A stretch of 58,225 bases of DNA from a virus: the IMG/VR virus record IMGVR_UViG_3300049811_000412, positions 1 to 58,225 of that record. One strand, given 5' to 3'. Positions within the stretch are counted from its first letter, which is position 1. Every line of letters starts with the position of its first letter. This document shows, piece by piece, positions 156-58,225 of the stretch. The notes under the pieces were generated by a model. The model did not search any database, was not told the DNA's origin, and saw only the letters and a program-made list of their open reading frames with translations. The position numbers and the translations under genes are program-made.

Positions 156-734
156 ATGACGAGTCGTGCGGTCTCCTTTTGGCTTCATTCCCAAGACCTG
201 ACCTTTCAACCTGAACCCGCCTTGCCACCTCAAGCCGACGTTGTCGTGATTGGAGGGGGCATCACGGGCATTTGCACCGCCTACTGGCTGAGTCAGTTGG
301 GCGTCCGGCCTGTGGTCTTGGAGCGAGGCAATCTGTCCTGCGGAGCGACTGGGCGCAACGGCGGGCATTTTGTCTTTGGGGCCAACCAAAGCTTTAAGGC
401 GTCCGTTGAGGATATTGGCCTAGAGGAAACCTTGGCGGTCTGGGACTTTACCCAGCAGAGTAGCCAGCTTTTGCAAGATGTCACGCATCGGCACAGCATT
501 GACTGTGATCTGCGGTTTAACCGATTGGTCGCCTTCGCGATGACGCCCGCCCAGGCCCAAGCCATCCGAGAAAACTGTGACTTCATGGCGTCCCATGGGC
601 TGGAGGCCACCTATTGGAATCAGGAGGACTTGACTACTCCCCGCGCTAAAGCGACGGGGATTCCCCGGAGGGATTACAGCACTTCTGAGTTAGGATCGTT
701 TCACCAGGAAGATCCCAAATTCTCAGACGCCTAG
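156..734 (+). pseudogene. FAD-dependent oxidoreductase (DAO family), truncated by an IS
   Basis: From ATG 156 the product begins with a Rossmann FAD-binding segment (VVVIGGGITGICTAYWL) followed by an ATGRNGG motif, as in D-amino-acid-oxidase-like flavoproteins. Native sequence stops after about 158 residues at base 629. From 630 the frame runs into the IS end, which adds about 34 foreign residues before the stop at 732-734. Family members are usually 370-450 residues, so more than half is missing and the product should be inactive. This is the only clearly host-type metabolic gene in the window. Confidence 0.75.
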
Positions 735-760
735 GCGAAGTCAAAACGCCTCTTGCTGGG
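630..760 (-). ncRNA. Predicted omega/reRNA of IS element 1
   Basis: Downstream of tnpB on the minus strand the element closes with a GC-rich hairpin whose loop carries CTTTAG, followed by GGGGAGTAGTCAA at the boundary. In characterised TnpB systems this right end is the guide-RNA scaffold, and the first flanking bases are the guide. Here the guide would start at 629 and read GTCCTCCTGATTCCAATAGG, taken from the oxidoreductase gene. The 5' limit of the RNA is a guess. Confidence 0.5.
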
Positions 761-1959
761 GTGCGTTGCATCCCAGTTACTTTTGCTTTGCGACCGATAT
801 TCCATGCCCCGTTGCAGTCGGCATTAACCTCAACGCCAGCGGCAGAGCGATAAGTTCCGCGCCGAATGCGTTTGCCTGAAGCCTTCCAACTCTCGGGTTT
901 TTCACCGTAGACGGGGATGGCATCAAGGTCTAACGCTGACGCTTGCGATGTATAACTTTCCTCCTGTTCAACAAACAAAATGCCGTGGGCCTCACAAAGC
1001 TGAGCAATGCGGTTTTTCAGCTTGGCCGTAGGAATCTGGACAAACTTTTGATTGGTCTTGCGGCCCATGCTGGCCTCGCTTTTTTGACCAGGGTTCCAGC
1101 CAAAAACAACCGTGCCAACACCGTACTTCAGGCAGTGGTTGACCACTGTGCGGGCCGCTTTGTTGACAGCATCGCGTATCTGGCGATTACGCTTGCCTGT
1201 CAGCTTATCCAGCAGCTTGCACCAGAAGGCTTGCTCCTTGCCGTCTTTGATGGTTGCAACCCGCTTGTTATAGCCCTGGTTGAGTGCCTTTAGATGCTTG
1301 CCATCAACGATGAAGCTATGGCCTTCGCTGTCTACGCAGGTCAGCCAGTTATCAATGCCGTGGTCAATGGCCAACGACTTCTCAGGGTCTAGCTCAACGG
1401 ATTCAGTGGGCTTGCCCGCACAAATCCAGACGGCATCAAAATAGCCCGCTCTGGGCACAATCTGAAGCTCTCTAACATCGGCCCAGTTGAGGTTGCTGGG
1501 GAAGGGTACAAAGATTTCAGGTAAGCCAAACCAGACCTTGCAGGCCGTTCCCATTGGCACCCTAACTTGGCCATCAACCAACTTAAGCCACCGCCTGGGG
1601 TAGCTGATCTGAAACATGCCACCAGAGCGGCGATAGTTGGGCGGCTTGGGCTTTTCAGTCAGTCCACTACTACGCCATAGCTTCAGCAGTTCACGGTAGC
1701 CCTTGAACGCCTCTCCAACGCTGATGCAGGTTTGCTGTGCAGCGCTGGTATAGAGCGCTTTCATGTGGGCGTTGTGCTTCATCTGGCTGGACAGCCAGCG
1801 ACCATTTGAGAATTTGCCAGCCTTGAAATACAACTGCCTAGCCAGATAAACCGTGCTGTTGTAGAGGCTGTTTGACTCCGTGCATAAATACTCCAGTGCG
1901 GCCCTTAGATCCGGGTCGCTAGGGAGTCGATTGACTTGCGCTGCAAAGGTTTTAGGCAT
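646..1959 (-). CDS. tnpB: RNA-guided nuclease TnpB (IS200/IS605), Zn-finger-less subtype
   Basis: This 437-residue TnpB-like nuclease has RuvC motif I as LAIDHGIDN and motif III as NADCNGAWNIG. At the usual motif II position (IVVEDL in typical TnpB) it reads VVFGWNPGQKSE, without the Glu. A Glu-rich LFVEQEESYTSQAS follows instead. The CxxC/CxxC ribbon of typical TnpBs is absent. Some TnpB subgroups are known to have a rearranged RuvC catalytic Glu, so it may still be active. Its 3' end overlaps the element end, as expected when the guide RNA is made from that end. Confidence 0.85.
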   Translation of the reverse strand: MPKTFAAQVNRLPSDPDLRAALEYLCTESNSLYNSTVYLARQLYFKAGKFSNGRWLSSQMKHNAHMKALYTSAAQQTCISVGEAFKGYRELLKLWRSSGLTEKPKPPNYRRSGGMFQISYPRRWLKLVDGQVRVPMGTACKVWFGLPEIFVPFPSNLNWADVRELQIVPRAGYFDAVWICAGKPTESVELDPEKSLAIDHGIDNWLTCVDSEGHSFIVDGKHLKALNQGYNKRVATIKDGKEQAFWCKLLDKLTGKRNRQIRDAVNKAARTVVNHCLKYGVGTVVFGWNPGQKSEASMGRKTNQKFVQIPTAKLKNRIAQLCEAHGILFVEQEESYTSQASALDLDAIPVYGEKPESWKASGKRIRRGTYRSAAGVEVNADCNGAWNIGRKAKVTGMQRTPARGVLTSPRRLRIWDLPGETILTQKCCNPSGESPSL

Positions 1960-2004
1960 AAAACAAGTATACTAAAATTGTAGATAAATGGGTAGTCATC
2001 AACA

Positions 2005-2409
2005 ATGCGAGATGAGTCAATTAACTACCGCCACGGCAACCACTCGGTAGGGCTGGCCCATGTTCACTTGGTCTGGATTCCGAAGCGGCGGAAAAAGGTT
2101 TTGGTTGGCAGCGTCAAGCTGAGGTTGTCCGCGATACTCAATGAAGTGGCCCTAGAGAATGGTTGGTTGGTTAAGGCTCTAGAAATAGCCCCCGACCACG
2201 TTCACATTCTGGTAGAACATGGCTCCCAGGTTGCCGTCCACCAAATAGTCAAAGCAATGAAGGGGCGTTCATCTCGACTGCTCAGGCAGGAGTTCCCCCA
2301 CCTCTGCAAGCTACCTTCCCTGTGGACTCGCTCATATTTTTACGACACGACGGGGAAGGTGAGCACGGCAAAGATCATGGCCTACATCAACGACCCTCAC
2401 CATGCCTGA
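2005..2409 (+). CDS. tnpA: IS200-type Y1 HUH transposase TnpA
   Basis: At 134 residues this is full length for the family. The HUH metal-binding motif is visible as PDHVHILVE (residues about 63-71), and the catalytic Tyr probably lies in IMAYINDPHH near the C-terminus. Such enzymes move single-stranded IS copies by cleaving and rejoining subterminal hairpin ends. It is transcribed divergently from tnpB, the IS605 arrangement. It is the only tnpA in the window, so it could mobilise related tnpB-only elements in trans if their ends are compatible. Confidence 0.9.
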   Translation: MRDESINYRHGNHSVGLAHVHLVWIPKRRKKVLVGSVKLRLSAILNEVALENGWLVKALEIAPDHVHILVEHGSQVAVHQIVKAMKGRSSRLLRQEFPHLCKLPSLWTRSYFYDTTGKVSTAKIMAYINDPHHA

Positions 2410-2484
2410 CGGCGGCTAAAACCGCTGTGTCGCTTTTCCGCCCCGCTCTAAAGAGACGGGGCTACCAAGCTCACGAGTTTTTAT

Positions 2485-3635
2485 CGTGTGGAATGATGCA
2501 CTGGCACTGATTAAGTCAACGCCGAAAGGCGAGACGTGGCCCAGTAATGCTGAGTTGCAGAAAATCTGCATCACCCAAGCCAAGCAGGCTGAGGGACGGG
2601 AATGGCTGGCCGAGGTCAGCAACATCCCGTTGCAGCAGTCCATTCAGGACTTGGGCGTTGCATTCAAAAACTTCTTCGACTACCGCAAGGGAAAGAGGAA
2701 AGGATCACGGGTCGGGTTCCCTCGGTTTAAGAAGAAACTCAACCAGCAGTCCGCTCGTTTTCGGAAGGGCGGGTTCTCCATCAAGGCCGGGAAAGTCTAC
2801 CTGGCCAAGATTGGGCACATCAAAGCCAAGTGGTCAAGGCCATTGCCCTCTGAACCTAGCTCTGTCACAGTCATCAAAGACTGTGCAGGACGGTATTTCC
2901 TGAGCTTTGTGGTGGAGGTGGAGCCTATCACCGTCGAACCCAAAAACCAAGGGGTTGGCGTGGATTTGGGCATTGAAACCTTAGCGACCCTCAGTACCGG
3001 GGAGAAAATCAAAGCCCCGGACACTCAATTTCTGGACAAGCACATTCGCAAAGGGAAGCGAAAACTCGCTAGGGCCATGAAAGGCTCGAAGCGGCGTGAA
3101 TCGTTGCGACTGGCCATTGCCAGGATGGAGGCTAAACAGCGCGACATTCGCCAAGACTTCAACCAAAAGCTGGCTTCTCGCCTAGTGCGGGAAAACCGTG
3201 TGGTGGTCTTGGAGGACTTGAACGTGGCGGGAATGGTGAAGAACCGTTCTCTGTCCAGGGCGATTAGTCGGGCTGGATGGCGGCAACTTAGAACCCTCTG
3301 TGAGGGTAAGGCCCACCTGATCCACGACCGGGAGGTAAGAACCATCAGCCGATGGGAACCTACATCCCAAGTGTGTTCATGTTGTGGCTATCGCTGGGGC
3401 AAATTGGACTTATCGGTGCGGTCAGTGTTATGTCTCAACTGCGGGGCCGAACACGACCGAGACATCAACGCCAGCGTGAATATCTTGGCGGCTGGGCAAG
3501 CCGACCCGAATGGGCAAACGCTAAGCTATGTAAGACCCCAATCTGGGGCAGCGGCTTGTTTGTCTACCCATCAGGAGTACGCTTAGTGCGGGCAGACTGG
3601 GAATCCTCGCGCCTTTAGGCCGAGGAGGATGTCAA
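2485..3635. mobile_element. IS200/IS605 element 2, left end lost
   Basis: Only the tnpB body and the right end remain. The right end has the hairpin at about 3605-3625 and finishes in GATGTCAA at 3635, the same terminal architecture as the other copies. It is itself inserted in the coding sequence of a third tnpB, which resumes at about 3636. A guide RNA from this end would read CCGTCGATGCAAACCTAAAC, part of that third tnpB. Confidence 0.75.
2486..3586 (+). pseudogene. tnpB: TnpB of IS element 2, 5'-truncated
   Basis: The product aligns by eye with the TnpB at 47208-48428 from residue about 32 onward (WNDALALI.. against YNDALAIV..). The N-terminal ~30 residues (RYQYRIYPTPQQ..) are gone, replaced by the end of element 1. 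RuvC motifs GVDLGIET, VVVLEDLN and DRDINASVNI and a CSCCG..CLNCG zinc ribbon are intact. The GTG at 2486 is only the first possible start. Loss of the N-terminal wedge region probably abolishes function. Confidence 0.85.
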
Positions 3636-4034
3636 CCGTCGATGCAAACCTAAACCGGGTGAATGCGGCGAGTTTCTGTCCAATGGTCAAGCTGCAAAGT
3701 CTGGCCTGAATAAAAGTTTTGCTGATGCTGGGATAGCTGGGTTCCTGAACGAGACCTTGCCTTATGTGGCTGAAAGAGCTGGTAAGCAAGTCGTGAAGGT
3801 CAACCCCGCTGGTACGTCCCAGCATTGTGCAATTTGCCTGAACCGAGTACCGAAGGAGTTGTCAGACCGCTGGCATAGCTGCCCCCACTGTGGAGCCTCT
3901 ATGCCGCGAGACGTGAACTCTGGGGTGCTCATCAAGAAAGTGGGCCTGGGACATCGGCTCACTATAAAACGCGAAGGTCGAAAGACTGGAGAAGCCCGCC
4001 CTCTACGCGAAGCGTGAGGGTCGGGAGTATGTCA
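3636..4034. mobile_element. IS200/IS605 element 3, right-end remnant
   Basis: After the tnpB remnant a hairpin (CCCTC..ACGC GAA GCGT..GAGGG, about 4000-4020) is followed by GGGAGTATGTCA, the usual right-end pattern. The boundary at about 4034 is set by the neighbouring gene, which reads up to that point on the minus strand and takes its stop codon (TGA) from the IS end. Confidence 0.65.
3642..4017 (+). pseudogene. tnpB: TnpB C-terminal remnant of IS element 3
   Basis: Reading from about 3642 without a start codon, the frame encodes about 124 residues typical of a TnpB C-terminus: an SNGQAAKSGLNKS segment, a CAIC..CPHC zinc ribbon and the RuvC-III Asp in MPRDVNSGV. It belongs to a different TnpB subgroup from elements 1 and 2. 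The N-terminal two thirds are absent, apparently lost when element 2 inserted and later rearranged. Confidence 0.8.
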
Positions 4035-4233
4035 CGCATAGCGGCGGTTGTTGTAGCGGCTAACCAGGGCGTCGTGAACTTCCTTGGCTTCCTGCATGGC
4101 CTGCTCGGCCCGGTCTTGAGTGGTAAATCCTCCAAGGTATTCGCCATTCCAGTCCCAGGCGTCGTAGGTGGTTTCGGCGCTGTTGATGGTTTTGTCGATG
4201 CGGCCTAGGCGGGTGGTATGAGGTGTAGGTCAT
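4032..4233 (-). pseudogene. Small hypothetical gene, frameshifted and cut by IS element 3
   Basis: Translation from ATG 4233 (overlapping the ATPase stop as ATGA) gives MTYTSYH and then leaves frame. Removing one C from CCACCCGCC near 4214 joins it to a sensible frame, RLGRIDKTINSAETTYDAWDW and onward, ending NNRRYA at a TGA supplied by the IS end. It would be the last gene of the 4.2-7.8 kb operon. The region could equally be an error or a true decayed gene; no family is recognised. Confidence 0.45.
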
Positions 4234-5612
4234 GGGGAAACCTCAGCCAGGGTGAATCGTGCAGGGGATTGTCCATCGCTAGCAACGGTGCCGTGATCAG
4301 TGGCCATACGGTCTAGGGCAAAGGCTATGTTTTCGGTCGTCAGTTTTTTGAGGTTTGTCGATTGTTGCCGCACTTCGCTAGCCAGCATGGGGGCATTGTG
4401 CTTTTCTAGGATGGCCAGGATCAGGTCAGCAATGTCTTCCACCACTACCGGGGGCACCATCTCAGCATCAGGGTCGAAGTTGGGCACCGCAACCCGGATC
4501 GGCGTGTCCTTTTGCCCTGGATAGTAGATATTGCAGTAGCCCGTGGGTACCGCTTTGCCGCCTTCACCAATGGTGCCGAGCATTTCGATTTCGAGCAACG
4601 ACTGGTCACGTTGGGCGGCTACCCCTGCTTTGCCGCCCAAGCTGGTTAGCGTGCGACCGTGGGCGATGAACAGGCTGTGCATGGCGATCTTGCGAATGTC
4701 GCTCATGCTACTAGCAAAGAATGCGGAGGCATCGGGGCAATGGCTAGACCAGTTGGTGAACTCTTCCGTGACGACGGTTAGGGGCTTGGGGTTGTACTCA
4801 GGGCGCTTGGCTAGTTCGGTGTAGCGGGCCTTCACCAGGGCTGCAAAGTGCTGTAGCCGTTCATTGCAGGCGGCGTAGTCCATCCCAGCCCCAGATACAG
4901 GTAGCCCTTTCCATGCACCATAGGCGGCGTGGGGGTCTAGCACCTCGATCATGTGCCCTGCCTTCATGCGCTCATTGATGAACCACTTTGCCAGGGTGCT
5001 TTTGCCGCTCCCTTGGGGGCCATAGATTAGCACCGCCGGATAAGCTAGGCATTCCCGGAGGATGTCGTGGGCGGTGGCCTCTGGTTTGGGCTCTGGGTCA
5101 TCGTCCCATTCCATCGTTGGCATAGGGGCAACGGGCATCGCCACGGGGGCAACAGGAGCCGCATGGGGCAATTCTTCGACAGACACGGGGGCAGGCTCAG
5201 CAGGGCGCAGGGGTTTCAAGATGCTGGCAATTCGGGCTTTGTTCGCGCCCCCGTTCAAAAACTTTCGCCCAGCCGCTTTGATGGGCAGCTTGCGGGCTTT
5301 GGCCTTGTTCAGTTCCACCAGCACTTGCTCTGGCCCACGGTATTCAACGTAGCTGTCGAACGTGGGGCCATCAAACAAGTGGGCCATAATGCCATCGTCG
5401 ATGGCGGCCAGGTGGTTGCTGGCTTCTTCGTTGCTATTCCACGATTGGAAAAACGATGCCCCCGCCAAGAATGCCCCTGCCACGGGGTTTAGTAGGGCCG
5501 CAACGCCAATCCCGCCAACGCCACCTCCAACCATCCAGATTTTGAACTCATCCTCTGGAATGGCTTTTTCAGCCCTAGCGATCCACTTCACTTCATCCAC
5601 TGTCCACTGCAT
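4230..5612 (-). CDS. Membrane-anchored P-loop ATPase (FtsK/HerA-like)
   Basis: This is a 460-residue protein. Near the N-terminus (about residues 27-55) is a Gly/Ala-rich hydrophobic segment (GGGVGGIGVAALLNPVAGAF) that could span the membrane, then a Pro-rich linker. The ATPase core follows, with Walker A YGPQGSGKSTLAKW (about residue 195) and a DPHAAYGAW motif reminiscent of the DPH/DPK..W segment of FtsK/HerA-type DNA pumps. A Walker B-like LTVVTEEFTNW comes after. GGAG lies before the ATG. It is the downstream end of a five- or six-gene minus-strand operon. The substrate is unknown; DNA transfer, packaging or export are all possible. Confidence 0.65.
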   Translation of the reverse strand: MQWTVDEVKWIARAEKAIPEDEFKIWMVGGGVGGIGVAALLNPVAGAFLAGASFFQSWNSNEEASNHLAAIDDGIMAHLFDGPTFDSYVEYRGPEQVLVELNKAKARKLPIKAAGRKFLNGGANKARIASILKPLRPAEPAPVSVEELPHAAPVAPVAMPVAPMPTMEWDDDPEPKPEATAHDILRECLAYPAVLIYGPQGSGKSTLAKWFINERMKAGHMIEVLDPHAAYGAWKGLPVSGAGMDYAACNERLQHFAALVKARYTELAKRPEYNPKPLTVVTEEFTNWSSHCPDASAFFASSMSDIRKIAMHSLFIAHGRTLTSLGGKAGVAAQRDQSLLEIEMLGTIGEGGKAVPTGYCNIYYPGQKDTPIRVAVPNFDPDAEMVPPVVVEDIADLILAILEKHNAPMLASEVRQQSTNLKKLTTENIAFALDRMATDHGTVASDGQSPARFTLAEVSP

Positions 5613-5623
5613 CTCAAAATCTC

Positions 5624-6409
5624 CTACGCTTTGCGCTTGCTAACAATGACTTGCTGCTTATTCAGGTACAGCACAACCTTCAACATCGCCTCGAAGACAA
5701 ACATCATGGCGACCAACATGCCGATATTTGGCCAGTTCAGTTGTCCCCATCGCCCTGTGAGAATGAGAAAAAAGAACTCTCGCAGTGAATCCGCCGGAGG
5801 GAACACCGTGGCGCACATCACAGCGTCCAATCCATACGCGACCCACATCCACCGTTTAGCAATGCGGATGCTGGAGGCAGAAACCTTGTTGTAGGCTTCC
5901 TTCAGCGCCACGGCTTCGTTGTCGTCGTCACTGTCAATGCTGAGCGAGTCGCCATTTTTGCGATGAGCTAGCAGGTTGCGAATTGCCTCTCGGTCATGCA
6001 GCAACACGACGTAGTAGGTTTCCGCAAACTGGAGTAGGCCCCAACTGGCAGTGCCACAAAACACAGCAACCCAGGCTGCTTGAGGCACCATCATCCCGTT
6101 GCTGGCAGCAAAGTCTTGGCCCATCCGAAACAATCGAATGTACGGCTGGACGTTCCACACACAGACGATGCCACCAACGGTTAGGGCGCAGGCCCACATC
6201 CCCCGCTGGACAAAATTGGTGAGCGATAGCTTTGAAGCCTTAGATGTTGAAAGAGTAGTGGCCATAGGTTTTGCTTTCGGGGGTTTGGCTGATGGTGGCT
6301 TGGGTAGCCCTTCGCTGGGCGGCACTGTAAAAAAGGACTGAGGCACACCCTGGTTTACGCTAAAGGGCGGCTGATTCGGTGGCGGGCTCGACGGGCGCGG
6401 GCTGAACAT
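5624..6409 (-). CDS. Proline-rich N-terminus, four-helix membrane protein
   Basis: The 261-residue product opens with a Pro/Ser-rich cytosolic-type region (residues 1-50). It then has hydrophobic stretches around GMWACALTVGGIVCVW, WVAVFCGTASWGLL, a weak one near VAYGLDAVMCATVF, and MLVAMMFVFEAMLKVVLYL. A polar loop with an acidic run (SIDSDDDNEA) separates the pairs. GGAGGT sits 7 bases before the ATG. It lies between the ATPase and a secreted-type protein, so a membrane complex with the ATPase is likely. Not recognised as a known family. Confidence 0.6.
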   Translation of the reverse strand: MFSPRPSSPPPNQPPFSVNQGVPQSFFTVPPSEGLPKPPSAKPPKAKPMATTLSTSKASKLSLTNFVQRGMWACALTVGGIVCVWNVQPYIRLFRMGQDFAASNGMMVPQAAWVAVFCGTASWGLLQFAETYYVVLLHDREAIRNLLAHRKNGDSLSIDSDDDNEAVALKEAYNKVSASSIRIAKRWMWVAYGLDAVMCATVFPPADSLREFFFLILTGRWGQLNWPNIGMLVAMMFVFEAMLKVVLYLNKQQVIVSKRKA

Positions 6410-6890
6410 TGTTGACCTCCTGGCCGTTTATGAACATGTTTTCTTCAAACTGTGGGAATTGCCGCAGACGGCTGAGCACAACCTCCCGATCTCCCGTGAA
6501 GGCAAACGACTGGGCCACGGGAAGCCCCTCGGCGTTGTGCTGCATGATGGCCGTGTTGCCATTGGCATCACACACAATCGTTCCGGCGGGGATGGGAAAC
6601 TGTGTCTCTGGATCGAGAACCACTTCGTTTTCGACTAGAGACACCCAATCGGTTTGGCCCCAATTCACCACAGGTTGGCAACCCAAAACGGTGTACCGTT
6701 CGTTGGCAATTTCGGCCATAGCCTTAGCCGAATCCTGCTGGAGCATTAGATCGGCATGGGTTGCCATGTCAGCATTAGACTGGTCGCGCATCGACTGAAA
6801 GTCGGCCAGAGTGCTATTAGCATTGCCTAGGCTGGGAATCGCCGCCACAAATGCAACCCCTGCTAGGCCCAAAGTAATCATCTGGTTCAT
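6360..6890 (-). CDS. Secreted or pilin-like hypothetical protein
   Basis: I prefer ATG 6890 (AGGGG upstream), giving 176 residues that open with MNQMITLGLAGVAFVAAIP, a signal-peptide or type-anchor-like hydrophobic segment. A helical region and a compact domain with two Cys (LGCQPVVNWGQ, IVCDANGNTA) follow. The open frame extends to 7067 with a basic sequence (about 59 more residues), so a longer form is possible. The 3' end overlaps the next gene by 50 bases. It may be an extracytoplasmic partner of the adjacent membrane protein and ATPase. Confidence 0.55.
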   Translation of the reverse strand: MNQMITLGLAGVAFVAAIPSLGNANSTLADFQSMRDQSNADMATHADLMLQQDSAKAMAEIANERYTVLGCQPVVNWGQTDWVSLVENEVVLDPETQFPIPAGTIVCDANGNTAIMQHNAEGLPVAQSFAFTGDREVVLSRLRQFPQFEENMFINGQEVNNVQPAPVEPATESAAL

Positions 6891-6930
6891 ATCTAGTCCC
6901 CTCTCGTAGACTCCCTGAAAACTCTCTAAC

Positions 6931-7026
6931 GCCCATCTAATGGGCCATCTGGCCATCTCGTAGCTATCTGGCAAGGCATCTGGAAGAGGCAATCTTAGAT
7001 AGGCTTTAGATGCCCTCCAGATGGGC
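6931..7026. repeat. Cluster of CATCTGG-like repeats
   Basis: Five direct copies of (C)ATCTgg/a (6934, 6946, 6954, 6965, 6977) and three inverted copies (AGATag/gc/gg at about 6998, 7009 and 7019) lie within about 95 bases just upstream of ATG 6890. If translation starts at 6890 this is a non-coding leader and possible regulator-binding array. If the long start is used, it is coding. Confidence 0.35.
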
Positions 7027-7072
7027 CGTAGCGGGTTCGCTGTGTCCTCCGCCATGGCCCATAGCAAACGGG

Positions 7073-7513
7073 CTACTTGGTATTGCTGCTGTCGGCAGTA
7101 GCGGTCAAGGAGGCCCGTGGCGTCGCCTGTGGTAAGGGCTGATAGGAGATCGGCCTCAAGGTCGGAGTTTGAATGGTCAATTTTTCGCCCGTCGGATGCG
7201 CTGCCATCAGCTGCCCCACATTGCGGGCGATTTGGTTGAAAAAACTGCCACCGCTGAGCACGTCATACAGCAGTTCTGAGGCTTGGTCGGCTACCCGCTG
7301 CGAGGCTTCTTGGTACTCATCCGCAACGGCTTGAATCCCTTGCGCACGGGCGGTTAGAGCCCCGTTGACTTGGTTGCGTAGCTGGGCAATTTCCGCCGCC
7401 ACTTGGGCACGGAAAGCCCGGTCGTCAGACCCCAAAGAAGCTGGCCCAGTCGGTTGCTGGGGCGGGGTTTGGGGCTTGTTGTTGCTGTTGGGGTCGAACC
7501 CTTTGTTGGACAT
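7073..7513 (-). CDS. Hypothetical protein, Gln/Pro-rich N-terminus, helical core
   Basis: 146 residues: a low-complexity Asn/Gln/Pro N-terminus (about residues 1-25), a long amphipathic helical region (AFRAQVAAEIAQLRNQVNGAL..EYQEASQRVADQASELLYDVL), then a Pro/Thr-rich tail. AGGAG is well spaced before ATG 7513, supporting this start although it lies 89 bases inside the preceding gene in another frame. It lies upstream of the secreted-type protein in the same operon. No family recognised. Confidence 0.55.
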   Translation of the reverse strand: MSNKGFDPNSNNKPQTPPQQPTGPASLGSDDRAFRAQVAAEIAQLRNQVNGALTARAQGIQAVADEYQEASQRVADQASELLYDVLSGGSFFNQIARNVGQLMAAHPTGEKLTIQTPTLRPISYQPLPQATPRASLTATADSSNTK

Positions 7514-7766
7514 GGTTGGCTTCTCCTAAGAACCGTTGGATGGACTCCTCTGAATACCCTTGCTGAAACCATGCAGCGATTTGAGCCAGGGCCATGCACT
7601 GAAGTTTCGTGAAGGCTTTAAGCCCCGGATCGACGCCCGCTAGGTTGCACCAGCGCCACATGGTTTTTTTCGAGATTTGCCGCCGCTCCCCTGGATACCG
7701 AATCCTCGATAGCTCAGCTATCACAAGGGCTCTGGCATACGTGGGAGGGGAAACAAACGGTTGCAT
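7425..7766 (-). CDS. Small helical protein with poly-Gln tail, first gene of the ATPase operon
   Basis: 113 residues. The middle (RRQISKKTMWRWCNLAGVDPG..FTKLQCMALAQIAAWFQQGYS) looks like a MerR-type or other winged-helix DNA-binding fold, followed by a QQQQQAPNPAPA linker. It is the promoter-proximal gene of the 4.2-7.8 kb operon. It overlaps the next gene by 89 bases out of frame, unusually long for this genome. It may regulate the operon; function is not established. Confidence 0.5.
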   Translation of the reverse strand: MQPFVSPPTYARALVIAELSRIRYPGERRQISKKTMWRWCNLAGVDPGLKAFTKLQCMALAQIAAWFQQGYSEESIQRFLGEANHVQQRVRPQQQQQAPNPAPATDWASFFGV

Positions 7767-7892
7767 GGGGGTTTCATAGAGGTTTCATAGCCTGAGGATA
7801 ACAGTCTTAGGTCACTTATGCAACGCAATTACATCGCTTTTGTGATGAGTTTGATAGAATGCCCGTGATTGCAGATAATTTGAGGATTGTTT

Positions 7893-8120
7893 ATGGGCGA
7901 TGCAATGGCACCGGATCGGAACCAGGTCACGTTGACGCTAAGCGACAGGGCGATGGAAGAATTTACCTTGGTAGCAGACTGGCTGGGAATGCCGCGCAAC
8001 ACGCTGATCCGGCAGGTGGTTGAGGCTCACCACCAGAACCCTAGCTTTGGCAATCTGGTACGCAGAGCAAGGACGGGGGACAAAGCGCCCACTAGCTATC
8101 ACACCGATGATGAGGACTAA
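7893..8120 (+). CDS. Ribbon-helix-helix (CopG-like) regulator
   Basis: From ATG 7893 the 75-residue product contains NQVTLTLSDRAMEEFTLVADWLGMPRNTLIRQVVE, a beta strand followed by two helices as in CopG/Arc DNA-binding proteins. A TTG two codons upstream is an alternative start. It is divergent from the 4.2-7.8 kb operon, with 120 bases between them, so it is a candidate regulator of that operon or of attachment-site functions. Confidence 0.6.
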   Translation: MGDAMAPDRNQVTLTLSDRAMEEFTLVADWLGMPRNTLIRQVVEAHHQNPSFGNLVRRARTGDKAPTSYHTDDED

Positions 8121-8123
8121 CCC

Positions 8124-8252
8124 ATGCTCACCGCCCACGTCACCCCAGCCCCACACCGAAGCTACCCGGCCATCGTCGGGCTACCCTTCCACCTCCTGCA
8201 CGAGGGCAACCCCGCCCATAACGTGCAGCTAACGGGCACGGCTCCCCGGTGA
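8124..8252 (+). CDS. Possible 42-residue ORF beside the attachment site
   Basis: An ATG three bases after the RHH stop opens a frame of 42 residues (MLTAHVTPAPHRSYPAIVGL..) ending at TGA 8250-8252. Close spacing suggests coupling to the RHH gene. The composition is unremarkable and there is no recognisable domain. The 3' part overlaps one of the 11-bp attachment-site repeats. Treat as tentative. Confidence 0.25.
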   Translation: MLTAHVTPAPHRSYPAIVGLPFHLLHEGNPAHNVQLTGTAPR

Positions 8253-8285
8253 CGCCCCAAGTCCTTGCCCCGTCTGCGGTGCTCC

Positions 8286-8332
8286 CCACTTTGGGGTAGT
8301 GGGGGTCGTGGGTTCAAATCCCGCCGCTCCGA
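8286..8332 (+). other. Integration core: 3' half of tRNA-Pro(GGG)
   Basis: The sequence folds as the 3' half of a tRNA: anticodon stem CCACT/AGTGG with loop TTGGGGT (anticodon GGG), T-arm GTGGG-TTCAAAT-CCCGC, then acceptor strand CGCTCCG and discriminator A. The 5' half is missing: upstream bases do not complete an acceptor or D arm. Tyrosine integrases commonly use such 3' tRNA halves as attachment cores, so that the host tRNA is rebuilt after integration. The integrase gene lies about 920 bases away. Confidence 0.8.
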
Positions 8333-8337
8333 TAGTC

Positions 8338-8369
8338 AAAAGGCCAGTCCATCAAGGGCGGGCCTTTTT
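8338..8369 (+). terminator. Rho-independent terminator after the attachment core
   Basis: AAAAGGCC and GGCCTTTTT pair around a 15-base loop directly after the tRNA-Pro fragment. In the integrated state it would terminate transcription of the rebuilt host tRNA. Confidence 0.6.
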
Positions 8370-8457
8370 GCTGTGGGTATCGTTGGGTAGCGTTAGGGGC
8401 GGTTGGGCGACGCATAACGTGCAGATAACGTGCAGCAGTTTTTGCTATGCTGGTTAC

Positions 8458-8534
8458 ACCGGGGTGGTGGAACGGATTACCATGTCGGGTTCATACCCCG
8501 AAGATTGCAAGTTCAACTCTTGCCCCCGATACCA
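8458..8534 (+). tRNA. tRNA with anticodon CAT (tRNA-Met or tRNA-Ile2)
   Basis: A cloverleaf can be drawn: acceptor ACCGGGG/CCCCGAT with one mismatch (C2:A71), anticodon stem TCGGG/CCCGA with loop TTCATAC, a five-base variable region, T stem GCAAG/CTTGC with loop TTCAACT, and an encoded CCA. Anticodon CAT could be elongator Met or lysidine-modified Ile. It is complete, unlike the neighbouring tRNA-Pro fragment, and is probably carried by the element. Confidence 0.8.
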
Positions 8535-8574
8535 TTTAAAAACGCGCTTAGTGGAGGTAGGTAGCGCACCCTCC

Positions 8575-8605
8575 AAGCCCTGGCTTTTGCTGGGGCTTTT
8601 GTTTT
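8575..8605 (+). terminator. Terminator downstream of the tRNA
   Basis: AAGCCC and GGGCTT pair around an 11-12-base loop, followed by TT-G-TTTT. It lies 40 bases after the CCA end of the tRNA and would end its transcript. Confidence 0.5.
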
Positions 8606-8610
8606 GGGGC

Positions 8611-8628
8611 CAACGGGAATTCCCGTTG
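8611..8628. repeat. Perfect 18-bp palindrome
   Basis: CAACGGGAATTCCCGTTG reads identically on both strands. It lies in the gene-free stretch between the tRNA and the integrase gene. It is a possible protein-binding site; no gene start is adjacent. Confidence 0.5.
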
Positions 8629-8823
8629 ACGTAGGGATTTGCGATTAAGCACCCCAGCCCCCATGCCGCCTAGGTTTGTCGGATCGCAGGGCCAAAAAAT
8701 GGGTTTGCTTTGAAGCACTCGGTATCTGGCTGGACACAAAGGTTGTCCCAAAACGTGACAACCTCGCATACGGTGTATCTAGCCTGTGCAAGCCATGCAG
8801 GGCTGTCAACACCGCACCCATCG

Positions 8824-8848
8824 AACCGTCAAGGATTCCTTGACGGTT
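8824..8848. repeat. 25-bp near-perfect palindrome (12-bp arms)
   Basis: Arms AACCGTCAAGGA and TCCTTGACGGTT are exact complements around one central base. No coding frame covers it convincingly. It is a candidate operator or a replication/recombination site in the integrase-side regulatory region. Confidence 0.5.
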
Positions 8849-8960
8849 GACACTACCCCCACACCACACCTCCTGCATACTGTGTACTGTATACAATGCC
8901 CTTATATAGATAGATATTTATAAATAAATTACTAAGTATTTATTTCCTCCATTGGGGTGA

Positions 8961-9252
8961 TAGTGTCAGTGCTTTTTCTTTTGTCAGCATAGTGTCAGTA
9001 GGGCGCTGACAGAATCAAACCCTTGCTACATCTAGGTTTCAGCTATTCAGTCAATCAGTCAGTGGAATTTCACCCCTAGCCGTTTTTTTAGGTAGTACAT
9101 AAAGCCCCTCTACCCTTATGGAGAAAAATATACCCCTATAGAACGCACTGACTGATTGACTGAATCGGCATGAACCTATGCATGGCAAGGGTTTGGGTCT
9201 GCTGACAATATGCTGTCACTACTGCTGACAGATAAAAACTGCTGACTGAATC
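8961..9252. repeat. Large symmetrical palindromic region (candidate origin or regulatory array)
   Basis: Two 20-bp arms, ATTCAGTCAATCAGTCAGTG (9045-9064) and its exact complement (9146-9165), enclose an 81-base AT-rich centre. Outward, both sides share AAACCCTTGC and AGGTT blocks. Further out, TGTCAG/GTGTCAG copies on the left (8963, 8982, 8993) face CTGACA copies on the right (9201, 9224). The gene-free stretch 8535-9250 also contains a TATATAGATAGATATTTATAAATAAATTA tract near 8903. The layout resembles an origin or a multi-site operator, but nothing here proves either. Confidence 0.55.
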
Positions 9253-10393
9253 AAAACCCCGGCATCTCTGGCCTGTCGATCATGTGGGCGTAGTGTCGAG
9301 CGGTGGTCTCCGGGGTGTTGCCGAGGGTAGCGGCAACTTGGGGGATGGATGCGCCCTGCTCCAGGAGGTGGGAACCGAGGCTGTGGCGTGCCGAGTAGGG
9401 CACACGGTCGATCCCTGCGAGGGCACAAATGCGCTTCCAGATGCGCTGGCTAAAGTTGGAATCGTTGATCGGGTTGCCCCGTGGGGAGAGAAACACCAGG
9501 TTATCGGGCTTGGCATTGTCCGGCCTGCGATTTGTCAACATGGCCACCATGTCGGGATGGAGGGTGATGGTGCGGGCCTTGTTGGTTTTGGTGCCCTTGC
9601 GCTGCCGTGCCCAGCCAGCCGTCTTGCCATCGGGGCCACGGGCTAGGGATTCGGAGATGGTCACTTGCCCTCGCTCAAGGTCAATGTGCCTCCATCGCAG
9701 CCCCACCGCCTCCGAGGGGCGCACCCCCAGGTAGAACAGCGTCATGACAAAATCGTGGTAGGGCGCGGCGTAGCGGTCGGCCTTGGCAGCATCCAAGACG
9801 GTGCGGATCTGTGCGGCGGTGAGGGGTTGGCGCTTGGGGTTGGGTTGCCGTGCGGTCTTGAGGCGCGGGATATCGGCCCAAGGGTTGTTGGCTAGGTGCC
9901 CCTGCTTGGTGGTCCAACGGCCAAACCCTCGTAGGCGGGATAGGTTCTGGTTTGCCACCGTGGGGGATTGCCGGGATCGGAGGTGCTCCACAAAAGCGGT
10001 GGCCTCAGCCTCGGTGGTGATGTTCTTGCCCCATCGGGATAAGTGGCTGAGCAGCGGCTGGTATCCGGCGGTGATGGTCTGGCCGCTGGTTCCTTCCGAG
10101 CGGCGGTAGGCCATGAACCGCTCGAACAGTTCCGCCGTAGTGGCCTGGGGTGGCGGTGCCTCCGGTTCGGGCTGGGGCCGATAGCGCTCTAGGGTTGGGT
10201 CAAACTGTTCCCTCGCAATGTCGCCTTGGATTGTGGCCGCCAGAGCAACAGCGCGTTGATAGTTCAGCGGGCTATCGGGCAAGCCCAAAGCAAGCTGGTA
10301 GGGTTGGCGCTCATGCGTCCATCGCAGTCGCAACATCCCATTGCGGCTGGTGATGGATACACTGCCTTTCTTGGCCCGCCGTGGCCTACGCAC
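9251..10393 (-). CDS. int: Tyrosine site-specific recombinase (integrase)
   Basis: 380 residues. An N-terminal arm/SAM-like region is followed by a phage-integrase catalytic domain. It shows the first Arg in FYLGVRPSEAVGLRWRHID, a Lys in the beta hairpin (TNKARTITLHPD), the box-II Arg-His in PYSARHSLGSHLLEQG and the nucleophile in TARHYAHMID. The start is GTG at 10393, at the upstream end of the frame. It lies next to the tRNA-Pro attachment core, which it most likely recognises. It is divergent from dcd. Confidence 0.9.
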   Translation of the reverse strand: MRRPRRAKKGSVSITSRNGMLRLRWTHERQPYQLALGLPDSPLNYQRAVALAATIQGDIAREQFDPTLERYRPQPEPEAPPPQATTAELFERFMAYRRSEGTSGQTITAGYQPLLSHLSRWGKNITTEAEATAFVEHLRSRQSPTVANQNLSRLRGFGRWTTKQGHLANNPWADIPRLKTARQPNPKRQPLTAAQIRTVLDAAKADRYAAPYHDFVMTLFYLGVRPSEAVGLRWRHIDLERGQVTISESLARGPDGKTAGWARQRKGTKTNKARTITLHPDMVAMLTNRRPDNAKPDNLVFLSPRGNPINDSNFSQRIWKRICALAGIDRVPYSARHSLGSHLLEQGASIPQVAATLGNTPETTARHYAHMIDRPEMPGF

Positions 10394-10406
10394 GGGGGTG
10401 TCTGGG

Positions 10407-10475
10407 TATAATGGGCATAGTGACGATCAGTGATTCACCTACCCTCAAGGTTTGCCCGCCTTGGGGGTTCTTTTT
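10407..10475 (+). promoter_or_regulatory. dcd promoter with attenuator hairpin
   Basis: A consensus -10 hexamer TATAAT at 10407-10412 is followed by a 10-bp stem (ACCCTCAAGG 10441-10450 with CCTTGGGGGT 10459-10468) and TCTTTTT. This is a complete intrinsic terminator between promoter and gene, which suggests attenuation or antitermination control of dcd. No good -35 hexamer was seen. Confidence 0.5.
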
Positions 10476-10483
10476 AAAATAGA

Positions 10484-10496
10484 CCAACAAAGGACA
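10484..10496 (+). promoter_or_regulatory. Leader motif copy (dcd)
   Basis: CCAACAAAGGACA, 5 bases before ATG 10502. It lies downstream of the TATAAT and the hairpin, so it is in the transcribed leader. Confidence 0.55.
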
Positions 10497-10501
10497 CCCG
10501 A

Positions 10502-11089
10502 ATGATCAAACCCGATTGGTGGATTTCTCAGCAAGCCCAGCAGGGGATGATTACCCCATTCCAGCCCAATTTGATTAGGGGACTAGAGCGGCGGGGGTCT
10601 ATGCGCAAGGTCATCAGCTATGGCGCGTCATCCTACGGCTACGATATTCGCCTCAGTGCCGCCGACTTTCGAGTGTTCCGCCACATTCCCGGCACCGTCG
10701 TAGACCCCAAGAATTTCAGCCCTGCCAACCTAGAAAGCGTTGAACTGCACAGCGATGACCAGGGCGAGTATTTCATTCTTCCAGCGCATTCCTACGGGCT
10801 AGGGGTTGCTGTGGAACGGCTGCAAGTGCCGGACAATGTGACCGTCATCTGCATTGGCAAATCGACGTATGCGAGAGCGGGCATCATTGCCAACATTACC
10901 CCCGCCGAGGCTGGATGGCGGGGGCATCTCACCCTAGAATTTTCCAATTCCTCCAGCGCTGACTGCCGGGTGTACGCTGGCGAGGGCGTGGTGCAGTTGC
11001 TCTTCTTTGAGGGCGAACCCTGCGAGACGACCTACGAGGGCCGCAAGTACCAAGACCAGGAAGAGCGCGTGACGCTGGCTAGGGTGTAG
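10502..11089 (+). CDS. dcd: dCTP deaminase
   Basis: 195 residues. It has the family signature GKSTYARAGIIANITPAEAGWRGHLTLEFSNSS (about residues 120-152), with the catalytic Glu in that block, an early SSYGYDIRLS and a late YAGEGVVQLLF. The enzyme converts dCTP to dUTP (or dUMP in bifunctional forms), feeding dTTP synthesis during phage replication. It lies between the integrase and a zinc-ribbon gene on the plus strand. Confidence 0.92.
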   Translation: MIKPDWWISQQAQQGMITPFQPNLIRGLERRGSMRKVISYGASSYGYDIRLSAADFRVFRHIPGTVVDPKNFSPANLESVELHSDDQGEYFILPAHSYGLGVAVERLQVPDNVTVICIGKSTYARAGIIANITPAEAGWRGHLTLEFSNSSSADCRVYAGEGVVQLLFFEGEPCETTYEGRKYQDQEERVTLARV

Positions 11090-11092
11090 ACC

Positions 11093-11272
11093 ATGCTCAC
11101 TGTATCGCTGGAGTACCTGTACCATTTCCGTTGCCACGCCTGCAACCGTTGGTGGTCGGTGGGCGATTTCCCGTGGGGTGAGAGGACTTGGGTGATGTGC
11201 CCCCACTGCGCAGCGGTTCACAATTTACCGGAAAAGCCACTGCTAGCCAAAGACTTTAAGTCAGAGGGCTAG
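11093..11272 (+). CDS. Small zinc-ribbon protein
   Basis: 59 residues from ATG 11093, four bases after the dcd stop, so the two are probably co-transcribed. CHAC (about residue 14) and CPHC (about residue 40) form a two-knuckle zinc ribbon. It ends at TAG 11270-11272, overlapping by four bases the end of the convergent late operon. The role is unknown; small ribbons of this type often bind nucleic acid or polymerase. Confidence 0.6.
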   Translation: MLTVSLEYLYHFRCHACNRWWSVGDFPWGERTWVMCPHCAAVHNLPEKPLLAKDFKSEG

Positions 11273-12141
11273 GGTGTAGGCGGCTCCACCCACAGCGAGG
11301 CATCCCAGGCGAAATACTGGGCAGGGTCGGGGGCAACGTAGGCAACGGGGAACGGTGTGCCCTCGGTGGCGGTGCCCCCGGTGGTGAGTTGCCAGGGGGT
11401 AACGGTGAGGGATTGTTGCCCCGCCGCTGGCCACCAGATATTCTCGGCGTAGGCGTCTACCCCTTTGTCGTAGAGCGTCAGGCCGATTAGGTCGCTGCGA
11501 GGAATGACGGCATTGAGGTCGGTGTTGAGGCGAGTGAAGGTGCCAGCAGCCGTAGCCAGCCAGGGGTTGCCGTTGGGGTAAAGGGTCGTGTTGACGCTGT
11601 TGTTGCCTACAAAAATGGCATAGGAAAGGTCGGGGTTTGGGACAACCTGTTGCCTTAACGTGTCCTGAGTTACGTCAAGGCGTAGCTCAGCAAAAACATT
11701 AGGCAGAACAAAGCCTTGGATAAAGTCAGGGCTAGAGCGTGTTCCAGAGGTGCCTTGCGACGTTGCCCAGTAGAACCGATCTATTCCAACATCTGCGGCG
11801 GCGGCAAAATGTCCCGCCATTGAAAAAAAGGCGCTGTCGTTAATTACTGACTCAAACAGGAACCCCGTCGCTCCGTAAAATACAAGGCGATCCAAAAAGG
11901 CGTTATCCCACGCCCAGCCGCCTACGACCCAATCATTCGGCCCTGGCCCGGTGGCGGTGATGCCGTAGAGTCGAATGCGGTTGTAGGTAGGGCTGCTGAG
12001 GGGGGCCACAAACACAGGCTCTTGATTCCAGCCCCCCACATAGTAGCCCTGGTCATCGCCGCTGTACTTTTCCAGCAACAGCTTGAGGGGAAATTCTGGC
12101 AGCGCGGGCGACCCCTGGAAATACACAAAGCGGCGGGCCAT
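11269..12141 (-). CDS. Phage structural protein, probable tail-tip or receptor-binding (hypothetical)
   Basis: 290 residues. ATG 12141 is chosen because GGAGGA lies 6 bases upstream; the frame is open seven codons further. It is rich in aromatic and beta-type segments (FVYFQGSPALPEFP, WNQEPVFVAPLSSPTYNRIRLYGI). It is the last gene of the late operon, behind the fibre genes, where receptor-binding or lysis genes are common. No endolysin motif is visible. Function is inferred from position only. Confidence 0.55.
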   Translation of the reverse strand: MARRFVYFQGSPALPEFPLKLLLEKYSGDDQGYYVGGWNQEPVFVAPLSSPTYNRIRLYGITATGPGPNDWVVGGWAWDNAFLDRLVFYGATGFLFESVINDSAFFSMAGHFAAAADVGIDRFYWATSQGTSGTRSSPDFIQGFVLPNVFAELRLDVTQDTLRQQVVPNPDLSYAIFVGNNSVNTTLYPNGNPWLATAAGTFTRLNTDLNAVIPRSDLIGLTLYDKGVDAYAENIWWPAAGQQSLTVTPWQLTTGGTATEGTPFPVAYVAPDPAQYFAWDASLWVEPPTP

Positions 12142-12142
12142 G

Positions 12143-12847
12143 CTAGATCCTCCGGGTGGCAATCGACACCGATAGCGGCGGCGGTATGGGGTCGTCTTCG
12201 CCGTCGGGAATGCCGGATAGGGTCAGGGTGATGGTGCCCCCCACTTCCACAGGTTCGCCTACCGCTGGGGCAATGGCAATGGTGTAGTCTACCTCCGGCT
12301 GGTGTAGCGCCTCAATCCGGCAGGGGTAAGCCTGGTATTGGGTGATGGTGTAGCTGCGGTTTTTGGGTTCGTCGATGGCAACGTCGATCTGTTCAATGGC
12401 CAGCACGTTCAGTACATCCCGCTGCGCCGCTTCGATCTGCGAGATGACGTTGCCGCCAGCGCCGCCATTACTGCCAGACGGGGGCGCATTGACCGCACTG
12501 GTTTGAGAATCCCCAAACCGTTGCAGGGGCAAGCGCTTACCGACCAATGCCCCATCGGTCAACGCCTGGGCGCGAATGGTGCCCCCGTCGGGGGTAGTGA
12601 TGAGCCAGTCGCCAGTGACAGGATCGTAGCCCGCAGCGGTGCCTGTCACCGGGGCGGTGCGCTGGGCCTCCTCAGTTTTTGCCTGGGCTATTTTCCCCGT
12701 AGCCGTTGCCTTGTCAGCATTGATAAGCGCCTGCTGACGAGCGGTGATGGTAGTCGCTCGAACCGTTTCGGCTCTAGTTGTTACAGCCTTAGTGGTTACA
12801 GCTTTGTTTGTTGTGGCGCGTGTGGTGGTGGGGCGGATGGTTGCCAT
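12143..12847 (-). CDS. Hypothetical tail-fibre-region protein with Thr/Ala-rich repeats
   Basis: 234 residues. The N-terminus is an unusual repetitive segment (TTTRATTNKAVTTKAVTTRAETVRATTITAR), probably a helical or fibrous stalk, followed by beta-type sequence. It sits one base from the next gene and overlaps the preceding one by one base. By position it belongs to the baseplate/fibre group. No named family. Confidence 0.55.
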   Translation of the reverse strand: MATIRPTTTRATTNKAVTTKAVTTRAETVRATTITARQQALINADKATATGKIAQAKTEEAQRTAPVTGTAAGYDPVTGDWLITTPDGGTIRAQALTDGALVGKRLPLQRFGDSQTSAVNAPPSGSNGGAGGNVISQIEAAQRDVLNVLAIEQIDVAIDEPKNRSYTITQYQAYPCRIEALHQPEVDYTIAIAPAVGEPVEVGGTITLTLSGIPDGEDDPIPPPLSVSIATRRI

Positions 12848-52507: not shown

Positions 52508-52753
52508 ATGAAAGTGAAAAGCCACCTTGCCAAATTGATGGAGTCAGCGGGGGTCGATCAAAAGACCTTGGCCATGGAGACTGGACTAAGCCCTGCCACG
52601 GTGGGTAAGCTTTACCGTGGTCATTTCAACCGCATCGACAACCACACGGTTACGGTGCTGTGCAAATGGTTCCGGTTGTCGAGTATTGCTGAGTTGATCG
52701 AAATTGTTTGGGAACCTGAAGACGGGGAGGCTCCAAGTGATTGCCATTCCTGA
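52508..52753 (+). CDS. XRE-family (CI/Cro-like) regulator
   Basis: 81 residues: MKVKSHLAKLMESAGVDQKTLAMETGLSPATVGKLYRG gives a canonical helix-turn-helix (about residues 16-40). There is no peptidase or oligomerisation domain, so it is Cro-sized. GGAGG precedes the ATG. It is the probable lysogeny/early switch regulator, facing the operator palindrome. Its last 17 bases overlap the start of the GIY-YIG fusion gene. Confidence 0.75.
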   Translation: MKVKSHLAKLMESAGVDQKTLAMETGLSPATVGKLYRGHFNRIDNHTVTVLCKWFRLSSIAELIEIVWEPEDGEAPSDCHS

Positions 52754-53345
52754 CATTGATCCGCTTGCGTTGCCGTCGGTCGCTTTAGAAAATGCTAACC
52801 GTTTGCCATTGGAGTCGGGCATCTACTTTGCCCTTGATGGCCAAAACACTGTTCAGTACATTGGGCAAAGCCAAAACCTTCGGCGGCGATGGGCTGGGCA
52901 CGCCCAAAAACAGCATCTAAAAAAGATGACTGGTGTTCGCATTGCTTACTTGCCAGTTCAGCCTAGTTTGCTGGCTGGGATTGAATCAGTCCTAATTGAG
53001 AAGCACTGTCCTCCCCTGAACTGTCTTGACCCTCAAGCTCGTCAAATGGCAGGGGTTAAAGCCTATCGGGCCAAACTTAAGGATGCGACTCCCCCTTCAG
53101 GCTTTCAAATGCGAGTAATTCAGACCAAGCAATGGAGGGTGCAAAACTTACCTCTCGCCTTGGCTGAATCGCAAAAAGCCTCCTCTAAAGACGTTTCTCA
53201 GCTTTGCCGTGAAGCTGGCATTGGCGAAGATACTTGGTATCGCTTAATTGCGGGCGGCAGTTCAACCATCCCGCTTGCCACGCTTTCTCGAATCTGCAAT
53301 GCCCTGGGTATCTCTCTAGAGTCCCTAGGGCTGAATCCCGACTAA
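52737..53345 (+). CDS. GIY-YIG nuclease fused to an XRE helix-turn-helix
   Basis: 202 residues from GTG 52737, chosen for GGGAGG eight bases upstream and the 17-base overlap with the repressor gene. Residues 26-96 form a GIY-YIG domain: GIY 28-30, YIG 41-43, Arg49-51, His55, Glu83 in GIESVLIEKH and Asn95. Residues about 150-197 (DVSQLCREAGIGEDTWYRLIAGGSSTIPLATLSRICNALG) form an XRE HTH. A sequence-guided nicking nuclease or a regulator using the nuclease fold are both possible. Confidence 0.75.
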   Translation: MIAIPDIDPLALPSVALENANRLPLESGIYFALDGQNTVQYIGQSQNLRRRWAGHAQKQHLKKMTGVRIAYLPVQPSLLAGIESVLIEKHCPPLNCLDPQARQMAGVKAYRAKLKDATPPSGFQMRVIQTKQWRVQNLPLALAESQKASSKDVSQLCREAGIGEDTWYRLIAGGSSTIPLATLSRICNALGISLESLGLNPD

Positions 53346-57915: not shown

Positions 57916-58203
57916 ATGCCGTGGCCAAAAGGAGTCGGGAAGCCGGATCAGCGACGAGGGCCAACCCGTAGACCGTCGCCCATTAGCAAAGCCTTGTACG
58001 ACCGCTTGGTGGAGCATTGCCGAGAGCGCGGCCTAACCATGCGAGAGGTCTTGGAAGACGCAATAAAAAAAGAGCTGGAATACTGGCCACAAGTTGAATT
58101 GACTACTCCCCGCGCTAAAGCGACGGGGATTCCCCGGAGGGATTACAGCACTTCTGAGTTAGGATCGTTTCACCAGGAAGATCCCAAATTCTCAGACGCC
58201 TAG
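57916..58203 (+). pseudogene. Small DNA-binding-type gene truncated by an IS end
   Basis: MPWPKGVGKPDQRRGPTRRPSPISKALYDRLVEHCRERGLTMREVLEDAIKKELEYWPQVE is about 61 residues of native sequence, with an RHH- or CopG-like helix pair (about 25-55). GAGGGG precedes the ATG. At 58099 the frame passes into the end of an element-1 copy and gains the same 34-residue tail as the oxidoreductase at 156-734. Only a few native residues may be missing, so it could still function. Confidence 0.6.
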
Positions 58204-58225
58204 GCGAAGTCAAAACGCCTCTTGC
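58099..58225. mobile_element. Second copy of the element-1 right end (127 bases, at the window edge)
   Basis: Identical base for base to 630-756, starting at the same element boundary but with a different flank. A full second copy presumably continues beyond the window. On the minus strand its guide RNA would carry TTCAACTTGTGGCCAGTATT from the neighbouring gene. Confidence 0.85.

Follow-up and report, generated by a model that had tools for sequence, protein, structure and literature searches.

A conserved P3-P2-ATPase membrane module on phages, plasmids and other mobile elements of cyanobacteria

What kind of machine is encoded by the minus-strand operon beside the attachment site of the virus record IMGVR_UViG_3300049811_000412, and is it found elsewhere? 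The window analysed here is the whole stretch of 58,225 nucleotides of this record, which contains major head, portal and terminase genes. The initial annotation had proposed five or six consecutive minus-strand genes as a candidate undescribed system. The operon and its flank contain the following features:

4033..4233, minus strand, short ORF downstream of the ATPase gene, possibly a sixth gene, frame uncertain (sequence reading)
4230..5612, minus strand, ATPase of the FtsK/HerA superfamily, 460 aa (AF2 model, Foldseek, profile against PDB)
5624..6409, minus strand, P2, polytopic membrane protein with four TM segments by homology (motifs and hydrophobic segments common to relatives)
6360..6890 (ORF open to 7067), minus strand, P3, with one N-terminal TM segment, a long helix and a small outer domain (alignment, model)
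7073..7513, minus strand, P4, helical protein rich in Gln and Pro (relatives have helical genes at the corresponding position)
7425..7766, minus strand, P5, putative HTH (MerR-like) protein, first gene of the operon (phmmer to the first gene of Kovacikia pB)
7887..8120, plus strand, divergent ribbon-helix-helix (RHH) protein, likely regulator (RHH_1 match below cut-off)
8286..8332, plus strand, isolated 3' half of a tRNA-Pro(GGG) gene, attP-like attachment core (match to intact genes)
9251..10393, minus strand, tyrosine integrase (phrog_1, 7.5e-50)

The five predicted ORFs (5/5) are present, intact and consecutive on the minus strand at 4230-7766, with short gaps or overlaps between neighbours, as had been described. 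The sixth (4033-4233), which overlaps the ATPase stop and adjoins an IS605-type insertion, has a doubtful reading frame, so that only five of the "five or six" genes are confirmed. The IS605/TnpB DNA lies to its left (646-4017) and interrupts an oxidoreductase-like gene. An IS605-type end is present in two copies, at 612-756 and 58081-58225 (94%), and the contig end (58225) falls inside the second of these, by which an RHH-like gene is disrupted near position 58098. Against the family libraries, the five operon products gave an informative match for the ATPase motor only, to generic P-loop models and below cut-off; P4 had no informative family match in Pfam and the other libraries. P5 matches the first gene of Kovacikia pB (phmmer 0.0016), which itself scores just below the MerR_1 cut-off (20.6 bits, cut-off 21.6), making the earlier winged-helix assignment of this gene plausible. 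The divergent RHH protein approaches the RHH_1 model (E 0.0018, 18.6 bits, cut-off 20.5), and Kovacikia pB has a CopG-family RHH gene at the equivalent position.

The ATPase has a Walker A motif GPQGSGKS (residues 198-205) and a Walker B glutamate, E284, which are invariant or nearly so among relatives, while a second branch of relatives has GKG or GKD within Walker A. An N-terminal hydrophobic hairpin (helices 21-40 and 43-72) precedes the motor (about 180-380). The AF2 model has a pLDDT of 75.8 overall and about 90 in the motor, and the C-terminal helices are of low confidence; the C-terminal pieces gave no informative Pfam match, and a winged helix was not confirmed in this low-confidence region. 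With Foldseek against PDB, the best match of the model was TcpA (6e-6), followed by RecA-family folds and FtsK (5e-5), and a profile of 19 relatives against PDB returned FtsK (4e-8), HerA (1.5e-7) and TcpA (3.6e-7), with an ABC transporter also among its best matches. The fold search against viral models returned generic ATPases, one of them a Nodularia phage protein. In Pfam, the window ATPase (P0001) scores 18.7 bits against DUF87, below the cut-off of 23.2, and no FtsK_SpoIIIE match was found anywhere in the window record; these curated cut-offs are a library convention and not a biological definition of the FtsK-HerA superfamily. The protein has the Walker A/B motor with an FtsK/HerA fold that characterizes this superfamily, as well as the N-terminal membrane anchor and FtsK-like motor of the TraB type. 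Fold and profile thus bear out the membrane-anchored FtsK/HerA-like class given initially, and the operon is assigned with high confidence to the FtsK-HerA-type membrane modules.

For P3, the ATG at 6890, with AGAGGGG in front as a good ribosome site, is a more likely start than the TTG at 7067; its homologues are of similar length (146-220 aa). The outer domain of P3 has two cysteines that are invariant in the alignment of relatives and is modelled with pLDDT above 90 across most of the domain, and its fold search against PDB gave no match (best E 0.7). The relatives of P2 have in common hydrophobic segments and NxxPY, Q..E and Y..D motifs. Its four-helix topology, as first read, is supported by these homologues, from which the TM segments were assigned, whereas a hydropathy scan of the window copy marks one segment. 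Neither P2 nor P3 had an informative match in Pfam, PHROG, PADLOC or NCBIfam.

The attachment site next to which the operon had been placed is real. The tRNA-Pro(GGG) piece lies between the operon and the integrase and begins in the anticodon stem, its 5' half is absent from the window, and five cyanobacterial genomes have intact tRNA-Pro genes matching it. In the integrated element L037, used for comparison, an intact tRNA-Val (539-612) lies beside the integrase (740-1855). Because a prophage would be expected to have such an intact tRNA beside its integrase, the lone core of the window corresponds to an attP arrangement, with the operon next to attP on the DNA of the phage. The operon therefore probably belongs to the phage itself, judging from this layout, on which host genes unrelated to the element were also rejected; two elements in tandem are an admissible alternative for the window. 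Relatives of the integrase lie in the module-bearing elements L021/L067, L037, L073 and L074 (phmmer 2e-90 to L037 and 4e-53 to L021/L067). Repeats of CACTGACTGATTGACTGAAT occur at 9035-9201 and 44396-45881. They form a perfect inverted pair of 20 bases close to the integrase, have further copies within the primase gene, and are possibly replication or integrase arm sites.

Does the gene set exist as a unit elsewhere? From plasmid searches, alignment-based scans and a phylum search, about 19 loci other than the window emerged in which P3, P2 and the ATPase keep this order, two of them at contig ends; the phylum search, from a related genome, gave 8/386. The gene-order check that the annotation had called for thus shows the order to be kept across plasmids, phages and other elements, and the co-occurrence on which the idea of a system depended is present. 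The distance matrices of P3, P2 and the ATPase correlate (r 0.74, 0.77 and 0.68), values reached in 0/2000 permutations, and the gaps between module genes are mostly below 100 bases. At almost every locus P2 is next to both P3 and the ATPase; no P2 can be recognised in L066, L065 is what is left of a module, and L031 has a truncated ATPase. Two plasmids from the plasmid searches, Kovacikia pB and Scytonema HK-05 plasmid6, have P2 and P3 next to an ATPase gene that crosses the start of the circular record, and Kovacikia pB has the full layout of the window (divergent RHH, HTH, helical gene, P3, P2, ATPase). Relatives of the ATPase are found in 21 cyanobacterial plasmids. With the window ATPase alone as query, no close relatives were found in genome or viral contigs; this ATPase, one from a plasmid and a P3 from L034 were all without a match among the annotated phage records. 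The carriers include:

phage L022: RuvC, module, terminase
phages L033/L020, L034 and L070: terminases, sigma factor
phage L067/L021: baseplate gene
phages L075 and L073: long tail-like proteins, from reading only
satellite L037: 11.8 kb between direct repeats of the tRNA-Val 3' half, with integrase, primase, TerS and module
plasmids L016 (complete, 17 kb) and L017/L018: module
nifD element L031: flanked on either side by a nifD piece (model positions 66-246 and 282-439), with tyrosine recombinase and module

The TerS of L037 matches phrog_6299 (1.6e-9), and there is little else on this element beyond integrase, primase and module; at 539-12423 it resembles a PICI-type phage satellite, in a cyanobacterium. 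The element at L031:801-19097 interrupts nifD of Richelia UBA3308 and encodes a P4-family phage/plasmid primase, the tyrosine recombinase and the motor-less module, in which the ATPase, by sequence reading, has kept its membrane part and lost its motor. This suggests that the nifD element, now fixed in a host gene, derives from a module-bearing plasmid or phage. In each of three genomes, G194, G287 and G005 (L071-L073, L068-L070 and L036-L039), different contigs carry divergent copies of P3, three or four per genome. The named hosts all belong to filamentous genera. The module is real and conserved among cyanobacterial mobile elements, as a probable membrane translocase, and no published description of it was found in a literature search whose scope excludes subscription papers and preprints. 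It matches no described system, which supports the initial candidate.

Here it is proposed, tentatively and at a probability of about 0.42, that the module is a DNA-donation or spreading pump, analogous to TraB/Spd or TdtA, that may move element DNA between cells. The fold matches to the conjugative coupling protein TcpA and to FtsK point this way, as do the profile matches to FtsK, HerA and TcpA, the P3-P2-ATPase order kept on phages, satellite, plasmids and nifD element (r 0.68-0.77), the loss of the motor in L031, an element fixed in nifD, the filamentous habit of the named hosts, and a weak match of one plasmid ATPase relative to the archaeal DNA-import ATPase CedD (E 0.024). However, phages and a TerS-bearing satellite already own a transfer route, which counts against a pump. 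So does the lack of a confirmed C-terminal winged helix, by which DNA recognition of the TraB/FtsK-gamma kind is no more than putative. Of the transfer, export or exclusion first envisaged, a membrane ATPase machine stands and the evidence leans to DNA transfer without proof.

Also counting against a pump, the relaxase families PF03432, PF01076 and PF08751 were absent from the window, the viral records L020-L022 and plasmid L016, VirB4 (TIGR00929) had no match across seven records that include these, and no outer-membrane or pilus component was recognised. These absences argue against standard conjugation, and since a relaxase is present on Kovacikia pB and Nostoc pNPM7, the module is not tied to relaxase or T4SS. 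They also bear on ordinary mobilisation, in which an unusual coupling protein complex would feed a helper type IV secretion system: TcpA as top fold match and the relaxases of many plasmids with a related Nostoc-type ATPase would agree with it, but with no relaxase or VirB4 in these carriers, complete plasmid L016 included, and no T4SS homologue of P2 or P3 in the libraries searched, it is improbable. A filamentous-phage assembly operon was rejected, there being neither coat nor Zot (no Pfam or PHROGs match). Of the resemblances that the annotation had named as evidence against novelty, the one to conjugation parts thus goes no further than the motor superfamily, and none to filamentous-phage parts was found.

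Within the operons of L033, L034 and L066 there are GIY-YIG (MUG113) proteins with a C-terminal TM segment, and the ATPases weakly match mad8 of MADS defence over the motor (L022 1.4e-9, P0001 3.8e-4). These two observations keep defence or superinfection exclusion alive as a reading, and the first also counts against a pump; the complex would sense or grip incoming DNA and destroy or expel it, with the GIY-YIG nuclease where present. Such cargo would likewise be found on phages, satellites and plasmids alike. However, GIY-YIG genes are missing from most module loci and from the window operon, similarity to mad8 is expected for any HerA-like ATPase, and a scan of the five operon proteins of the window and of five relatives recognised no other mad gene, so this reading is rather unlikely. 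Elsewhere in the window (52704-53345), a protein joins a GIY-YIG domain to a Cro/C1-type HTH and has relatives in L009, L021 and L026; the L021 relative is an RHH-GIY-YIG protein divergent to the L021 module.

ParM-like genes precede the module in L016, L035 and L071-L074 (confirmed by profile for L016, L035 and L074) and also in ATPase-bearing Nostocales plasmids. Since FtsK itself works at the septum, a membrane- or septum-anchored translocase that, with ParM/ParR, clears or distributes element copies at division could be envisaged in polyploid, filamentous hosts. This segregation or maintenance role is unlikely: the module loci of phages L022, L033, L034 and L070 and of satellite L037 showed no ParM nearby, and the partition genes are exchanged while the module stays constant. 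The exchange is seen in Nostoc UHCC 0870, in which five co-resident plasmids (L076-L079, L007) have related modules mostly 92-98% identical (88% in one comparison; one module gene of L078 is frameshifted), while their ParM groups are 22-30% identical, with L007 and L078 of one type (96%). ParM and adaptor are swapped between plasmids, an apparent cassette exchange behind different partition genes. Near-identical modules with differing ParM types argue against partition, and also against self-exclusion, for which such co-residence would be unexpected; a machine usable in trans could fit this pattern and the pump reading draws on it.

These Nostocales plasmids have different partner genes, in which the P2 and P3 profiles detect no homology, and are therefore counted as related ATPase modules and not as members. 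Plasmids with the Nostoc-type ATPase are typed as mobilizable in 23/37 cases against 57/228 CyRepA1 plasmids (Fisher 2e-5), two sets that overlap and are not independent samples. This higher share favours the pump, although it counts against it that both the typing and the co-residence come from a related ATPase with partners not homologous to P2 or P3.

As a pump, the operon would encode a membrane-anchored DNA translocase complex, a portable cassette of cyanobacterial mobile elements, and the HTH and RHH proteins would regulate it. Anchored in the inner membrane by its hairpin, the ATPase may form an FtsK/TcpA-like ring on the double-stranded DNA of the element, with P2 as a possible platform or pore, and P3 would project from the membrane to touch the envelope, septum or a neighbouring cell. 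ATP hydrolysis would power export of the element DNA from the cell or its passage through the septum, and the element could spread without a pilus or relaxase of its own; in a TdtA-like variant, the competence system of the recipient would take up the DNA. A more specific form, a pilus-free and relaxase-free machine that passes phage, satellite, plasmid and nif-element DNA along cyanobacterial filaments, comparable to TraB/Spd in the Streptomyces mycelium with unrelated partner proteins, is doubtful. If the pump were confirmed, it would be a candidate transfer machine for cyanobacterial mobile elements, many of which are without recognisable transfer genes, would connect phages, satellites, plasmids and nif excision elements, and would offer a testable case for DNA passing between the cells of multicellular cyanobacteria; as a defence complex, the module would instead be a membrane-bound, DNA-directed system of a new kind.

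Among known systems, mad8 of MADS resembles the ATPase over the motor, without another MADS component among the scanned proteins. TcpA of pCW3, the best PDB fold match, acts in conjugation alongside partner tcp genes, whereas no relaxase or VirB4 was found with the module. The crenarchaeal DNA-import system of CedB/CedD has a HerA-like ATPase that bears TM helices, polytopic partners in the membrane and no relaxase (PMC11868833); unlike the module, Ced is host-encoded in archaea, and the link is the weak match of one plasmid ATPase. In Streptomyces pIJ101 and pSVH1, TraB and Spd pair an FtsK-family motor with small, diverse membrane partners and no T4SS (PMC4170104). The module is similar in motor, membrane partners, compact plasmids, filamentous host and absence of a T4SS, and differs in occurring also on phages and a satellite; no homology of P2 or P3 to Spd proteins was seen. 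TraB further has clt/TRS sites and a winged helix at its C terminus; for the module, no such helix was confirmed, and the repeats near the operon include no clear TraB-like recognition site. ICEth1 of Thermus, 14.9 kb between 47-bp tRNA-Ile repeats, encodes the donation ATPase TdtA of transjugation, in which the donor pushes DNA and the recipient competence system takes it up (PMC5365140). L037 resembles it as a small tRNA-flanked integrative element with an FtsK-HerA ATPase at the membrane, a likeness that speaks for a pump; TdtA is paired with NurA and a type IIG enzyme, whereas the module ATPase is paired with P2, P3 and sometimes GIY-YIG.
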